This document shows, one piece after another, positions 54,522-60,999 of a stretch of DNA of 64,000 bases. The notes below the pieces were generated by a model. The model saw nothing but the letters and a program-made list of their open reading frames with translations. It did not search any database and was not told where the DNA came from. This DNA comes from a virus. Location: IMG/VR virus record IMGVR_UViG_3300017755_003154, positions 20,064 to 84,063 of that record, one strand, 5' to 3'. Within the stretch, counting starts at the first letter, position 1. Each line of letters starts with the position of its first letter. The position numbers and the translations under genes are program-made.

Positions 54522-55286
54522 ATGAATATTCACGAAATAATTTTAGAAGATAGTCGTATTGATGAGAAACCCACAAGTTCAATAGGCAATTTCGCTAAAA
54601 AAATGGCTAGTAAAGTTACAACTGGTGGTGTAAGTGCTAGATTAGGCGGAAGTGCTGAAATGGGTTCTAAAGCAAACGAAATTTATAAAGATCTTGCTAG
54701 ATGGCAAGGTATCAACGGTAAAAACGATAAAAACATGACTGCACAGGATTTAGCGGCATTCATGAAGCAACACAAGTTAAACGCAGGCGGAATAGATTTA
54801 CCTGATGGTGTATTAGGTAAAAAAACAATCGATGCAGTACTAAAGAAAGCAAGTGCAAATGCACTTACAGGCGGAAACGCGGCGGCTTCAACTAAAGCCC
54901 CAGCAGGAGCACCTGCTAGTGGCGGTGGTGTTGGAGGAGCGTTAGGTGCTATGGCTAAAGGTGCAGGCGTAAAAACTCCAAATGTTAAACCAAGCACTGG
55001 TAGCGGTGCAGGTGGTGCAGGCGGTAGTGGAGGCGGAGCAGGTGGCGCAGGTGGTGCAGGAGCACCAGGACCGGCAGGAGCCCCAGGTGCGGCAGGAGCA
55101 GACGGAAAAGATGGAAAAGATGGAGCAAGTGCAAGTCCTAGCACAAGCAAACCAGCAGGTACACCAACTGCAAAAGATCCTAAAGTAACACCGTTAAAAA
55201 ATAAAGGTGGTATTTCACCAGAAATACAAACAATGATTGACAAATTGACGCCAACTGAGAAAAAAGCATTGGCAGGAGCAATATAA
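54522..55286 (+). CDS. Gly/Ala-rich protein with collagen-like segment
   Basis: 254 residues, RBS AAGGA. The first ~120 residues are a globular helical domain (IYKDLARWQGINGKNDKNMT, DGVLGKKTIDAVLKKA, reminiscent of a peptidoglycan-binding-like small domain). Residues about 125-225 are low complexity, with GGAGGAGG runs and collagen-type triplets (GAPGPAGAPGAAGADGKDG). It ends in a short helix. Late promoter upstream and TAATG coupling to the next gene suggest a virion component made late. I do not recognise the family. Collagen-like stretches in phages usually form trimeric stalks. Confidence 0.65.
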   Translation: MNIHEIILEDSRIDEKPTSSIGNFAKKMASKVTTGGVSARLGGSAEMGSKANEIYKDLARWQGINGKNDKNMTAQDLAAFMKQHKLNAGGIDLPDGVLGKKTIDAVLKKASANALTGGNAAASTKAPAGAPASGGGVGGALGAMAKGAGVKTPNVKPSTGSGAGGAGGSGGGAGGAGGAGAPGPAGAPGAAGADGKDGKDGASASPSTSKPAGTPTAKDPKVTPLKNKGGISPEIQTMIDKLTPTEKKALAGAI

Positions 55287-57367
55287 TGAAACTGCAAGAA
55301 GTAACATCATACAATTTAAAATCTGCAACTATTCTTAATGAAGGTTGGCAAGACTTAACAGAATCACAAAGACTTTATATTGGTCGTTGGGAAAAAGAAT
55401 TATGGCCTTTGCTAGAACAATATACAAAACTTGCAGAAGCACAACTAACAGCAGATCAAATTGATGCAATTTTTAAAGGTGCAGAAGCACAAGCAAATGC
55501 AGACGGTGACAATAGAAACTTATTAGGTAAAGCGGGTGCTGGAGCGGCCGCTGTTGCAAAACTACCTGTTCAAATGGCAAAAGAAATTGATGCTAAAATC
55601 AACGAACTTGGTAGAATGGCAAAAAATGCAGGTCCAATTAAAAATGCAGATGCAAAGTTTGCACAACTTAAAAAGGATATTACTGCAAAAAACGGTGACA
55701 GTAAAATTGTTCAAGGCATACAAAAAGTAAGTGATTGGGCAAAAGAAAATCCTGGTAAAGCAAGTGTAGCAGTTGGTATTTTAACAGCAGTTGCGGCTTT
55801 TGCCGGTGGACCAGTAGGCGGTGCGGCCGCAGGTTTAATTTTCCGTTCAACAAAAGAATTATTACAAGGTGAAGATCTTTCAAGTGCAGTAGGCAAGTCA
55901 GTTAAGACAGCCGCTTATGGTGCTATTGCAGGTTGGGCATTAGAAGGCATTGGCGATTGGATGGAAGGCATTAGAGCAGAAGCAGTTCCATTTGATAAAG
56001 CAGAAGGATTGACTACAGTAAAAGTTGACTTTACTAAAACTCTGAGTGGTTGGGGATATGAACACGAACAAAATTTAGTTAGTATGGTTGTTCCTGACGG
56101 TCAAGCAGGAGAGTTTGTTGAAATGGTTGAGAAGATGCGTGGGTTAGTAAACGCAGGCAAAGATTCAGAAGGTATTAGAGTGTTTAACAAACTTTGGGCA
56201 TTTACAAAATCATTTGACAAAGCAGAATTCTTAGACAACATGAACGTAACAAATCAAATTGCTAAGTCTGTTGCACAAGCCAACGATACAGCATTACAAG
56301 CAATGACAGCAGTCAATGATGGAATTTCTGCTATTGCACAAGGTAGTATGCAAACAGTTGATGATCCAGCAAAAGCCAAAGGTAAAATGGAAGTCGGCGG
56401 TAAGCCAGTTGAACCAGTGCAAGGCGAATTAGATCTTAAAGGTGGCGGTGCTCCAGCAAAAGCAGAAGCACTTGACATGGAGGAACGTTTTGAACAATTT
56501 TTAGCAGAAGCAGAACCTGCACAAGGTGAACTTCCTTTAAACAATCCAAATACAATGGGTGCTAAAGCAAAGCGTGGCTTAGGAAACTTAGCAAAAGGTG
56601 CATTAGGTGCAGTTAAAGGAGCGGCAGGCAAAGTAAAAGCAGGCGCAAAAGAATTAGGCAGTGTAGTAACTGCAAAAAAACTTAATAAAGCATGGAAAGC
56701 GGCAGGCGAACCTATGGATTCAGCAAGCATTATGAATATACTTGGAGATGCAGGATTAAGTAACGATCAAATTGCAACTATCGGACAAACTGCAAAAGTA
56801 GACCTAAAGCCAGGAGCAAGCAAAGAAGAACCAAAAGCAGATGCTACAGCAGAGCCAAAAGCAGATGCAGGTGCTACAGATGCACCAGCACCAGCAGGCG
56901 GAGATGCACCAGCAGGCGGAGATGCACCAGCAGGCGGAGATGCACCAGCAGGCGATGATAAAGTAAGTTATCCTACAGGCACTCCAGATGATCCAGTAAA
57001 AGCAACCGGTGGAGACTATCCAGACGAACCAGATGCGGCTCCAGCAGGCACTGCATCAAAAGCAGTTGCTAAAGGTGATACTATGAAAGCCAAAGATGGC
57101 AAAGAGTATAAATGGATGGGTGCATTATGGGTAGATGTTGCTACTAATAAACCAATTGGTATTATTCCTTCAATGGCACAAGGCTTACCTAATCCTAAAT
57201 TAGATCCAATTATTGCCGCGGCTAAGAAAGATCCAGCAATGGCAAAACTTATTAAACAGCAGGTTGCATCTAAAGGTGTTGAGCCAGGAACAGCAGGTGC
57301 TCAAAAAGCGGCACAAGCCGGAGTTAAAGGCACAGAACCACTTGATGCAAAAGGTGTAACGGCTTAG
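55286..57367 (+). CDS. Large Ala-rich protein with hydrophobic core segment
   Basis: 693 residues. The N-terminal ~150 residues are helical. Residues about 160-215 are strongly hydrophobic and Gly/Ala-rich (ASVAVGILTAVAAFAGGPVG, AAYGAIAGWALEGIGDW) and could be membrane-active or a packed helical core. Further on come long Ala/Lys helices, a Pro/Ala/Asp repeat, then a small C-terminal domain with DGKEYKWMGALWVDV. I do not recognise it. Co-translated with the collagen-like protein and probably late. Candidate virion-internal or injected protein, by analogy only. Its last four bases overlap the end of the -1-frame extension on the other strand. Confidence 0.6.
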   Translation: MKLQEVTSYNLKSATILNEGWQDLTESQRLYIGRWEKELWPLLEQYTKLAEAQLTADQIDAIFKGAEAQANADGDNRNLLGKAGAGAAAVAKLPVQMAKEIDAKINELGRMAKNAGPIKNADAKFAQLKKDITAKNGDSKIVQGIQKVSDWAKENPGKASVAVGILTAVAAFAGGPVGGAAAGLIFRSTKELLQGEDLSSAVGKSVKTAAYGAIAGWALEGIGDWMEGIRAEAVPFDKAEGLTTVKVDFTKTLSGWGYEHEQNLVSMVVPDGQAGEFVEMVEKMRGLVNAGKDSEGIRVFNKLWAFTKSFDKAEFLDNMNVTNQIAKSVAQANDTALQAMTAVNDGISAIAQGSMQTVDDPAKAKGKMEVGGKPVEPVQGELDLKGGGAPAKAEALDMEERFEQFLAEAEPAQGELPLNNPNTMGAKAKRGLGNLAKGALGAVKGAAGKVKAGAKELGSVVTAKKLNKAWKAAGEPMDSASIMNILGDAGLSNDQIATIGQTAKVDLKPGASKEEPKADATAEPKADAGATDAPAPAGGDAPAGGDAPAGGDAPAGDDKVSYPTGTPDDPVKATGGDYPDEPDAAPAGTASKAVAKGDTMKAKDGKEYKWMGALWVDVATNKPIGIIPSMAQGLPNPKLDPIIAAAKKDPAMAKLIKQQVASKGVEPGTAGAQKAAQAGVKGTEPLDAKGVTA
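56894..56947 (+). repeat. Three perfect 18-base tandem copies (APAGGD repeat)
   Basis: GCAGGCGGAGATGCACCA is repeated three times without change, with a partial fourth copy, encoding Ala-Gly-Gly-Asp-Ala-Pro units in a linker. Identical copies indicate recent expansion by slippage, and copy number may vary between relatives. Confidence 0.9.
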
Positions 57368-57594
57368 AAAAAAGGCTGTTGTGTTTTCTTTGTAGTTTCT
57401 AAATTTTCTTTGATAAGATCAGAAATTAAATTCCTATCTTCGTAACTAAGTTGGAATGCTTCGTCCATGGTCATGCTACCGCGCATGTACCACATCAGTT
57501 TAAAAATCTCAGACCTAAACTGTTTGCTTTGGCCTTCTAAGTTTTTAACTTCTTCTAGGATCTGTTCAGTCGGCCAACTGACGATCCTTAGGCG
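57364..57594 (-). CDS. -1-frame extension of gp26-like protein (frameshift product)
   Basis: 76 codons open in the -1 frame from CGC at 57,594 to TAA at 57,366-57,364, with no plausible start or ribosome site of its own near the beginning. The translated sequence (ILEEVKNLEG, FKLMWYMRGSMTMDEAFQLS, YEDRNLISDLIKENLE) is a protein-like amphipathic helical domain, and its RG-...-EAF-LS-EDRN-I pattern resembles tail assembly chaperone extensions. It would be made only as a fusion after slippage at 57,600-57,594, giving about 386 residues. A real separate gene starting at an internal ATG is less likely. Confidence 0.7.
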   Translation of the reverse strand, partial: RLRIVSWPTEQILEEVKNLEGQSKQFRSEIFKLMWYMRGSMTMDEAFQLSYEDRNLISDLIKENLETTKKTQQPFF

Positions 57595-58523
57595 AAAAAA
57601 TGTGCTTGGTCAAAAACAATTGGCACTTCAAATTTTTCTGGAGCACCTTCTTTAATTTGTTCTTCACTTGAACGTACTTCCATAGGAGGTACTTCAAACT
57701 CTTTCTTTTGTTTTTCAATATGATCTTGTAAGGCTTTAAAGAAAGATTTGTCTGTGTTTTCTAAAAACTCTACAATATGATTTCTATCAGTTACAACAGT
57801 GTCATCGATTTGAATTGAAACAACACTACTAATAACCATTCCTAAAGTTATATCTCTAATTTTATTAAACGTTTCAGTGAATTGTTTTAATTTTGCATCT
57901 TCATCAATTTTATCATTATTAACAAGTGCAAAGATTCTTTGTTCTTCAAATGTTTGCATTGAAACTTGGCTAAATTCTTTGTAATTTAACGGACGGATCT
58001 TACAAACTAAACCATTAAATTCAAATGTATCATTAAACTTAGCATTTGTATACCTATCTAATATTTGTCTTAAGTCAACAGTATAATCTACTGGTTCTTT
58101 TGTATTTGGTGCTGTTGCTGTAATAGTCATATGTTCACCACTTGACGCAATTCTAATAGCAATTAAACATGCATCAATATCAAGACTTGGCATGCCCCAA
58201 ACGTTTTTAATATTAGGAATACAACTTTGAATTAAATCCACTGTTGCTTGACCGCTCAACAATGCATCCGGAGTTTTTAATGCAAGTTCGTCTTTTGCTG
58301 TCATAGCCATAACTGGCAATTCTCCTGACTCAGGCATATCGATACTATTCTCAGGATAGTACATTCCACCACTTGGTAATGATATGTAAATTTTTGGTTG
58401 TCTAAAATGTTTTTGAAGTGGATTAGATCCACCTTCTTTTAGTGTTTTCTTTTGTGCTTCTATCAAAGGATTGATATTATTTCCTTCTTCTTGTCTAAAT
58501 TGTTCTGGGTTGAACTCTGCCAT
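57588..58523 (-). CDS. gp26/PF12322-like baseplate hub or tail assembly chaperone
   Basis: 311 residues. HFRQPKIYISLPSGGMYYPE, GELPVMAMTAKDELALKTPD, LLSGQATVDLIQSCIPNIKN and DACLIAIRIASSG are the conserved core of the T4_baseplate family (PF12322, T4 gp26 type), here with a longer helical C-terminus. The classical label is baseplate hub assembly. The adjacent tape measure gene and the slippery stop point instead to the role played by lambda gpG/gpGT: coating the tape measure protein during tail assembly. A late motif CATAAATA precedes it. Cytoplasmic, probably absent from the finished virion if a chaperone. Confidence 0.85.
   Translation of the reverse strand: MAEFNPEQFRQEEGNNINPLIEAQKKTLKEGGSNPLQKHFRQPKIYISLPSGGMYYPENSIDMPESGELPVMAMTAKDELALKTPDALLSGQATVDLIQSCIPNIKNVWGMPSLDIDACLIAIRIASSGEHMTITATAPNTKEPVDYTVDLRQILDRYTNAKFNDTFEFNGLVCKIRPLNYKEFSQVSMQTFEEQRIFALVNNDKIDEDAKLKQFTETFNKIRDITLGMVISSVVSIQIDDTVVTDRNHIVEFLENTDKSFFKALQDHIEKQKKEFEVPPMEVRSSEEQIKEGAPEKFEVPIVFDQAHFFA
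57594..57600 (-). promoter_or_regulatory. Programmed -1 frameshift slippery site T TTT TTC
   Basis: On the minus strand the last codons of the gp26-like gene read CAT TTT TTC GCC TAA. The heptamer T TTT TTC fits X XXY YYZ in the correct zero frame, two codons before the stop, and the -1 frame continues for 76 codons. Confidence 0.7.
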
Positions 58524-58596: not shown

Positions 58597-60999
58597 ATGG
58601 CAGGACCAGTAAAAGGAACCATAGGGGGCGATGATGTTACCCTAATTGATGCGGCTACCGAAACAACTCTACTAAAAATACTCGCGGCTATGAAGAAACA
58701 AGGCGGCGGTGGTGGAGGCGGCGGCAAGGGCGGTGCTCAAAGTTCAGAAGAAGAACTAATGGAGATGGCAAAAGCCACTGGTAAAACCACCGATTCATTA
58801 GAAGATTTAGAAGAACAAGTAGAAGAAACTAGCAGTATGCTAGCCAGAGGATTTGGCCAATTAAGCCAAATGGTCCAAGGATTAGCACACGAATTCTTAG
58901 GTGGATCTACATCAATTTCTGATTTTGCTTCACATATTACTGGTGCATTATCTGCTATTCCTATTGTAGGACCACTTGTAGGAGGCGCATTACAGTTACT
59001 AGTAAGTGTCGTTGATCAAAATATTCAAACATTTAGAGAAATGTCACAAGTTGGTGTAGACTTTGGTGCAAGTATTATGGGTGCAAAACTTGCGGCTACA
59101 CAAGCAGGACTAAGTTTAGAAACATTCCAAAACGTAATTTCACAGAATTCAGAATCACTTGCTTTGTTTGCAGGCGGTGCAAGTGAAGGTGCAAAACGCT
59201 TTGCACAAATCAGTGGACAAATACAGAAAAACATGGGACCACAGTTTAGTAAACTTGGTATGACAATGGAAGAAACTGCTGAATATACAGCAGACTATTT
59301 AGAAATGCAAACATCTTTGGGTAGAGCCCAAAAGATGAGCAACAGAGAATTAGAAGCAGGTATTGCTAGTACAGTACTAGAAGTTGACAAACTTGCTAGA
59401 GTAACAGGTAAGCGTCGAGACCAAGTCATGGCAGAGATGAAAGAAAACATGGCTGACAAACGTTTAAAACTTATATTCAACACTATGGAAAAAGGTGCTC
59501 AAGAAAATCTTAACGGTGTGTTGACAATGATGGGATCAGCAAGTCCGGACCTTAAAGATGCAATTACAGAAATGGTTGCAACAGGCGGAGTACCTTTAGG
59601 TGAAATGGGTCAAGACTTAGTGCGTTTAAATCCGCAGTTAGCGGCAATGTCAGAAGGCTTGAAAAACGGTACTGTTACTCAAGATCAGTTTATGGCAGAG
59701 ATTAGAAAAACTGCTGAGATGGCAGACAATCTAAGTGATGCACAAAAAGAACAGTACTCAACACTAGCGGCAATGGGTAGTAGCGTTGGTAGTGCTATTA
59801 TTGAAATTATTGGAATGAAAAATGCAGGTAAAAATTTAACTGATGCACAAAAACAACAACTAGAAGCATTTGAATCAAGAGAAAAAGCAACAGCAGATTT
59901 TGAACGTGTATTACAAGAAACTAAAAATAAAATTTATGATGCATTAATTAGTTCAGGAATCTTTACAGAAATTTCAGAATTAATGGGCTCATTTACTACT
60001 TGGTTAGCAAGTCCAAATGGTACTGCTCGTATTATGGAATTTACAAATAGTATTTCTACTAAGTTTAAAGAATTACTAGAAGCATTTAAGTCAGGTAACT
60101 TAATGCAATATGTTAAAGATATGTTAGCAACTGGTCTTTCTGGTTTAGGCGGAATGATTGGTAAGTTAATAGGTGGCATATTTGGCGGCGGTGGTGAAGA
60201 AGAAACAGCAGATGGAGCAGGAGGCAAAGAGAAAAAAGCAGGTGGCGGTATATTTGTTGGGTTAGATAGTGCATTAGAAAAACTAGCAGGACTAGTTGCA
60301 GTTGGTGGTGTAGTTTATCTTGCTATTAAAGGATTCCAATCATTATTAATGGGCTTTGCAAATCCAACAGTAATATTAGGTGCAGGTGTATTAGCAGGAT
60401 TATTAATAGGTACAGGCGCGGCAATAAGATTAGCAGGTGACGGAATTAGTGCGGCAGGCGATGGTGTAGAAAAAATGGCGGCAGGCGTTGAAAGAATGTC
60501 CCAAGTTAAAGATACAGCCAATTTAGCAAACGTTGCTGAATCCCTAGGTGCATTAGGTAGTGCTATGTTAGGACTAGCCGCAGGTGGTATACTAGATAGT
60601 ATAGCAAGTTTCTTTGGCGCTAGTTCACCATTTGATAAAATGGTTGAAGGAATTAACAAATTTAGTAAAATTGACGCAAATGCAATTAGTAATTTAACAG
60701 GTGCAAGTAGTGGACTTGCAAATTTAAAATCATTTACAGATGGTTTAGATGCAGACGGTGTTAAAACTTATGCTCAAGCATTAAAAGAACTTGCTGAGGC
60801 TATGAAAAAACTAAATGTAGTGCTTGCAGACTCAAATAGTAAGAGAAAAGAAAGCGGATATTCAGTTTCTGACTTACTCAAATCTGAAGGCGGATTAGGC
60901 GGTGGTGGCATAAGTAGTAATACATTAGAACAACTTATGCGTACTAACAATACATTGCTAGGAAAAATCCTGGAGAAAAACCCAGAGAGTGCATATTAA
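58597..60999 (+). CDS. Tail tape measure protein (gp29-like)
   Basis: 800 residues, RBS AAGG. A Gly run near residue 40 is followed by long amphipathic helices with regularly spaced Met/Leu, a hydrophobic helical stretch near 115-150 (ISDFASHITGALSAIPIVGP) and a strongly hydrophobic block near 560-620 (LAGLVAVGGVVYLAIKGF, VILGAGVLAGLLIGTGAAIR). This helix-rich plan with membrane-like segments and small-residue linkers is that of tape measure proteins, which set tail length and enter the host membrane at infection. T4 gp29 is 590 residues, which would imply a longer tail here. Its place beside the frameshifted gp26-like gene supports the call. Confidence 0.75.
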   Translation: MAGPVKGTIGGDDVTLIDAATETTLLKILAAMKKQGGGGGGGGKGGAQSSEEELMEMAKATGKTTDSLEDLEEQVEETSSMLARGFGQLSQMVQGLAHEFLGGSTSISDFASHITGALSAIPIVGPLVGGALQLLVSVVDQNIQTFREMSQVGVDFGASIMGAKLAATQAGLSLETFQNVISQNSESLALFAGGASEGAKRFAQISGQIQKNMGPQFSKLGMTMEETAEYTADYLEMQTSLGRAQKMSNRELEAGIASTVLEVDKLARVTGKRRDQVMAEMKENMADKRLKLIFNTMEKGAQENLNGVLTMMGSASPDLKDAITEMVATGGVPLGEMGQDLVRLNPQLAAMSEGLKNGTVTQDQFMAEIRKTAEMADNLSDAQKEQYSTLAAMGSSVGSAIIEIIGMKNAGKNLTDAQKQQLEAFESREKATADFERVLQETKNKIYDALISSGIFTEISELMGSFTTWLASPNGTARIMEFTNSISTKFKELLEAFKSGNLMQYVKDMLATGLSGLGGMIGKLIGGIFGGGGEEETADGAGGKEKKAGGGIFVGLDSALEKLAGLVAVGGVVYLAIKGFQSLLMGFANPTVILGAGVLAGLLIGTGAAIRLAGDGISAAGDGVEKMAAGVERMSQVKDTANLANVAESLGALGSAMLGLAAGGILDSIASFFGASSPFDKMVEGINKFSKIDANAISNLTGASSGLANLKSFTDGLDADGVKTYAQALKELAEAMKKLNVVLADSNSKRKESGYSVSDLLKSEGGLGGGGISSNTLEQLMRTNNTLLGKILEKNPESAY

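Follow-up and report, generated by a model that had tools for sequence, protein, structure and literature searches.

Vladimirov, Gautam and Davidson reportedly found in 2022 that frameshifting is conserved in several groups of T4-like phages and that T4 uses the genes 26 and 51. As this work is cited in the PRFect paper, there are T4-like phages with one short and one long fusion tail assembly chaperone (TAC) gene in place of frameshifting (PMC10885494); as it is cited in the paper on phage Adele, the TAC-N genes of T4-like phages carry poly-T -1 slip signals (PMC12846349). In a review of T4, gp26 and gp51 are described as hub assembly chaperones (PMC3004832). The same architecture of a short and a -1 frameshifted long protein is found in gpG and gpGT of phage lambda, including a C-terminal domain without start codon, a slip site just before the stop and linkage to the tape measure gene (Levin 1993; Xu, Hendrix & Duda 2004). 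A conserved poly-T slip motif followed by a -1 extension is also present in the TAC genes of Vandenendeviridae and Andersonviridae (phage Adele, PMC12846349); these are other phage families, their motif is GTTTTT, and the likeness to the locus studied here is one of motif and extension.

In this study, we analyse a gp26-like gene in a stretch of viral DNA of 64,000 nucleotides (the window), which is part of a virus record of 84 kb. The first-pass annotation had proposed a programmed -1 frameshift producing a tail chaperone fusion in a T4-type phage. Conservation of the heptamer and of the extension, dN/dS and a downstream hairpin speak for this proposal, and we consider it very probable, on sequence evidence, that the locus is a TAC locus with programmed -1 frameshifting in a marine T4-like phage. 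The novelty for T4-type gp26 that was implied at the same time had to be given up, as the scheme is already published (Vladimirov et al. 2022, Virology 566:9-15, as represented in citing papers). The idea that the link of gp26 and gp51 to TACs would be a new result was likewise given up in view of that study, which reportedly identified the TACs of T4-like phages and was found via the papers citing it. The window locus is a well-supported further example of the published T4-like chaperone frameshift: it shares with the gp26/gp51 chaperones the short and long forms and the poly-T -1 signals, as these are cited, and the gene family PF12322/phrog_150, which was tested in the window gene.

Anatomy of the locus and its neighbourhood

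The features of the locus are listed in Table 1. The gp26-like protein belongs by its N-terminal domain to PF12322 (T4_baseplate, T4 bacteriophage base plate protein; 41.4 bits versus a cutoff of 24.5) and to phrog_150 (baseplate hub; E 1.7e-16). In the annotated collection it is related, with roughly 24-34% identity, to gp26-like genes that belong mostly to jumbo T4-like phages. On the minus strand the 3' end of the ORF reads GCA CAT TTT TTC GCC TAA, and the heptamer T_TTT_TTC at 57600-57594 is in the zero frame, just as the first-pass annotation had read it. After a slip the -1 frame stays open for 76 codons, up to a stop at 57366-57364. The earlier claim that this frame lacks its own start also holds: ATG, GTG and TTG are absent from the first 33 codons of the extension, and its first ATG is located at 57495, 33 codons in. 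The extension is predicted to be reached by a shift only, giving a fusion of 386 aa.

Table 1. Coordinates of the features at the putative frameshift locus (positions in the window)
Feature	Position	Strand	Basis or remark
Convergent neighbour gene	55286..57367	+	stop overlaps extension stop by 4 nt
-1 frame extension, 76 codons + stop, putative TAC-C domain of long form	57364..57594	-
Predicted stimulatory hairpin	57557..57588	-	outer stem AGGATC (57588-57583) / GATCCT (57562-57557), 6 bp
TAA, zero-frame stop of short form	57588..57590	-	sequence
Slippery heptamer T_TTT_TTC, one codon ahead of zero-frame stop	57594..57600	-	sequence; kept in relatives
Probable gp26-like tail assembly chaperone gene, short form (TAC-N, 311 aa)	57588..58523	-	PF12322, phrog_150, cyanophage gp26 profile
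Divergent 800-aa gene, probable tape measure protein (TAC client)	58597..60999	+	phrog_14121; PA5oct, RaK2 counterparts

A long open -1 frame alone is no evidence here, because neighbouring genes often overlap in that frame; in the window, the -1 frame is open for a median of 66 codons after a stop. Among all window ORFs of at least 100 aa (64 kb), in-frame T_TTT_TTC is found in four copies, and the gp26-like gene is the sole case with the heptamer within the last 15 codons. If the extension is ignored, 57368-57587 is a non-coding gap; once it is counted, coding is continuous, since its stop overlaps that of the convergent neighbour. The products of this neighbour and of 54522-55286(+) are rich in Ala/Gly/Pro/Asp repeats, with GGDAPAGGDAPAGGDAPAG and collagen-like G-x-x; neither gave a Pfam match or a strong PHROG match.

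The gene had also been described as adjoining a tape measure gene. Adjacency to 58597-60999(+) is confirmed, and the identity of this gene as tape measure protein is plausible. Its only match is phrog_14121 'virion structural protein'; similarity to a tape measure protein is noted in the annotation of the RaK2 counterpart, and ESI-MS/MS detected the one of PA5oct. In the window, the gp26-like gene is transcribed divergently from the presumed tape measure gene and is not directly upstream of it. In S-PM2, immuto and SP-15 the gene is co-directional and lies upstream of the tape measure gene or of a long ORF in that place. A location next to the tape measure gene is typical of frameshifted chaperones; in the window, the gp26-like gene adjoins the probable tape measure gene, though in divergent orientation.

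The extension was modelled as a confident helical unit (pLDDT 90.0), in agreement with the helical domain suggested earlier; the gp26 model reached pLDDT 83.8. Foldseek gave no significant match for the gp26 model in PDB or for the extension model in BFVD, and a search by sequence found no solved relative.

Conservation of heptamer, extension and hairpin

Heptamer and extension are present in 17 of 17 viral loci found with the window protein, down to 31% identity, one relative (L014) having the variant T_TTT_TTT. Both also occur in all seven cultured jumbo phages (Phosso, PA5oct, Atu_ph07, 121Q, RaK2, Munch and GAP32); over the 17 relatives and these seven phages they are kept down to about 28% aa identity. 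S-PM2 gp26 retrieved 80 loci, all of them with T_TTT_TTC just ahead of the stop, nearly always by 10 nt, and with a gp51-like frame at -1. The same heptamer is found in P-HM1, Aeromonas P19, ACP17, VH7D and OLIVR6, and pf16 has T_TTT_TTT. The pooled tally is 110 of 112 loci with TTTTTTC and two with TTTTTTT. A profile-based survey of the window clade revealed T_TTT_TTC in 80 of 80 loci (three of which duplicate contigs counted earlier), with an extension of 76 codons in nearly all. Within the window clade, no relative lacks a slippery sequence, and in none does the extension occur solely as a distinct gene whose own start is conserved. These are the two refuting cases that the first-pass annotation had named.

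The codon preceding the TTT of the heptamer always ends in T, and the residue it encodes varies (His, Ser, Asn, Thr, Arg, Asp, Ala). XXT_TTT_TT[C/T] is present in 32 of 32 representatives below 70% aa identity, for which a nominal probability of ~1e-26 was computed from the encoded residues and pooled codon usage; this value ignores shared ancestry and is an indication, not a p-value. The heptamer is conserved beyond chance. Among close relatives of the window, pairwise dN/dS is 0.13-0.17 for the extension versus 0.16-0.21 for gp26, and the -1 frame of the extension contains no stops, compared with 3-11 in each of the other frames. The extension is under purifying selection, like its parent gene.

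Such data bear on the idea that the two frames are joined artificially, through a sequencing error or because the gene is a decayed pseudogene. Homopolymer errors are common, and the record of phage IME-SM1 is apparently one T short at the site; however, the same architecture recurs in ~190 loci, sequenced in many projects, as well as in reference genomes, and both parts are under purifying selection. The comparative data refute this idea, and its probability is practically nil. In the Stenotrophomonas phage IME-SM1 record (L117:971-1813), whose slip site is one T shorter than that of relatives, the annotated end of gp26 is shifted; the missing T is possibly a homopolymer sequencing error.

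The predicted hairpin begins 5 nt past the heptamer at constant spacing, with an inner stem that varies by lineage, and folds with z = -2.8. Across 53 distinct sequences, 92% of the cells of the outer stem are paired and 13 cells are changed on both sides, as compared to 4.4 in shuffles; when the partner strand is slid along, pairing falls to 24-52%. For the inner stem, covariation is seen across nine close relatives. In the relatives L015, L024 and L025 the folding energy of the hairpin is unremarkable. Part of the stem conservation may come from coding, because the stem also encodes the residues RIL...EIL. In S-PM2 and its relatives, a long stem follows about 10 nt after the heptamer (13 bp in S-PM2). 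AGGA, GGAG and GAGG were absent within 25 nt upstream of the slip site in all 55 loci inspected, thus there is no dnaX-type stimulator with a Shine-Dalgarno-like element. An Rfam search at the slip site gave no match.

Two further explanations have to be weighed against ribosomal frameshifting. The extension may be an independent small gp51-like gene, with translation beginning at an internal start or coupled to termination at the gp26 stop, as the ATG starts annotated at or near this stop in S-PM2, Phosso and 121Q suggest, together with Vibrio phage K474, which has an ATG at the stop and no T6 heptamer. Yet in the window the first ATG of this frame lies 33 codons into the extension, many loci of the profile-based survey have no start codon near the slip site although conservation begins immediately past FF, and an independent gene leaves both the invariant T_TTT_TTC and the constant hairpin spacing unexplained. 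We regard such a gene as very unlikely. The -1 product could also originate from transcriptional slippage on the T6 run, which is present and comprises seven T in two relatives. Against this origin, nearly every locus has exactly six T and then C, and no run has drifted to eight or more, whereas polymerase slippage usually requires longer runs to be efficient; moreover, the hairpin is conserved at ribosomal spacing; we consider this origin most improbable.

The sequences show the anatomy of the locus, its conservation and its homology; the ribosomal slippage, its rate and a chaperone function are inferred. The majority of ribosomes would produce the gp26-like short form and halt at TAA. A minority would move one base back on U_UUU_UUC, helped by the hairpin downstream, and translate the further 76 codons into a long form with the helical C-terminal domain. 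Judging from lambda gpG/gpGT, coating of the tape measure protein would fall to the N-terminal domain and recruitment of tail tube subunits to the C-terminal one. The lambda system is likened to the locus by architecture; it differs in its slippery sequence, which is G_GGA_AAG instead of T_TTT_TTC, and in orientation, as the gp26-like gene of the window and the presumed tape measure gene are transcribed away from each other. The short form would be equivalent to T4 gp26 and the long form to T4 gp51.

Decoding of gp26 and its extension in related lineages

T4 itself has two genes in place of a frameshift. T4 gp51 matches PF12322 over residues 1-201 (177 bits) and, judged by this match, is a gp26 paralogue with ~48 extra C-terminal residues; by the same reading, genes 26 and 51 of T4 code for the short and the long chaperone form, respectively. 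Both residues 147-246 of T4 gp51 and the -1 extensions of cyanophages match phrog_634 (baseplate hub assembly catalyst), and these extensions align with T4 gp51 208-244. The gp26 profiles of the window clade and of cyanophages match with E 1.9e-13. For the extensions, the profile match between the jumbo (window-clade) form and that of cyanophages and T4 gp51 is weak (E 1.5e-3, probability 17%), and the jumbo profile gave only a spurious match against the single sequence of T4 gp51; the window-clade extension matches that of a sister lineage with E 4.7e-7.

The cyanophages S-PM2 and P-HM1 resemble the window in carrying T_TTT_TTC at the same place before the stop with gp51 at -1, and S-PM2 also in its strong hairpin downstream of the heptamer; they differ in being annotated with two genes. 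S-PM2 gp26 ends TCT TTT TTC GCA TAA, and the annotated gp51 is in the -1 frame, which is open through the heptamer. This gp51 (L032:10472-11364) is annotated as a separate ATG-started gene. Across Kyanoviridae, a separate gp51 is likely a misannotation. Cyanophage gp51 was described as lacking the first ~200 aa of T4 gp51 (Sullivan 2010); it would look truncated because the long form arises by a gp26-51 frameshift.

In the gp26 homologues of Mel-JY01, Flavobacterium phage immuto, RM378 and SP-15, the extension is in the +1 (or -2) frame (loci L122-L281; L026:2390-3262; L029:1495-2235; L030:1498-2175; L031:1492-2232). Searches with immuto and Mel-JY01 gp26 yielded 160 viral loci, 155 of them parsable. 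A near-universal TTT-YTN-TGG-CCT is found at the gp26 end of these 155 loci, as TTT TTT TGG (114), TTT CTT TGG (34), TTT CTA TGG (4) or CTT TTT TGG (3). In the loci displayed, CCT follows next after TGG and the zero-frame tails have 3-6 codons. The median open length of the +1 frame is 82 codons; the -1 frame is typically shut within 2. SP-15 has its +1 extension behind TTT TTT CAC, not behind the TGG motif. The gp26 parts of this lineage and of the window clade are homologous (E 7e-17), and PF12322 matches 11 of 18 members. A UUU-decoding tRNA slipping +1 onto UUY fits the main variants, with a -2 slip as the alternative. These patterns suggest +1 programmed frameshifting in the sister gp26 lineage, which is possibly a new result.

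Other arrangements are found as well. In Vibrio phage K474 (L121:902-1905) the extension's own ATG overlaps the gp26 stop (TAATGATG), an apparent separate-gene solution. Serratia phage Kevin (Ackermannviridae, L120:1501-2423) has a gp51-like extension at -1, and its gp26 ends CAG GTT TTC ATC TAA; by its sequence, GTT TTC is a different and weaker slip candidate than T6. The uniformity of the window clade does not extend to more distant gp26 lineages, where the extension has its own start (K474), lies in the +1/-2 frame (Mel-JY01, immuto, RM378, SP-15) or is part of a separate paralogous gene (T4). On balance, we lean towards the view that one ancestral T4-type chaperone gene has come to be decoded in at least four ways, with a switch of slip direction in evolution: -1 on U_UUU_UUC (window, jumbo phages, cyanophages), +1/-2 on UUU-YUN-UGG (Mel-JY01/immuto/RM378, 155 loci), an overlapping start (Vibrio K474), and duplication plus fusion (T4 26 and 51).

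Implications for the T4-type chaperone family

With this locus, the range of the T4-type chaperone frameshift grows by a large marine clade, mostly uncultured, and by the jumbo phages RaK2, 121Q, PA5oct, Atu_ph07 and GAP32, whose records annotate the short form only or two genes. Moreover, the results favour annotating cyanophage gp51 anew, as the C-terminal portion of a gp26-51 fusion. What most deserves further study is that the direction of frameshifting appears to have switched within a single gene family. If the +1 lineage is true, this family would be a natural comparison for a change of direction in which the product is preserved.
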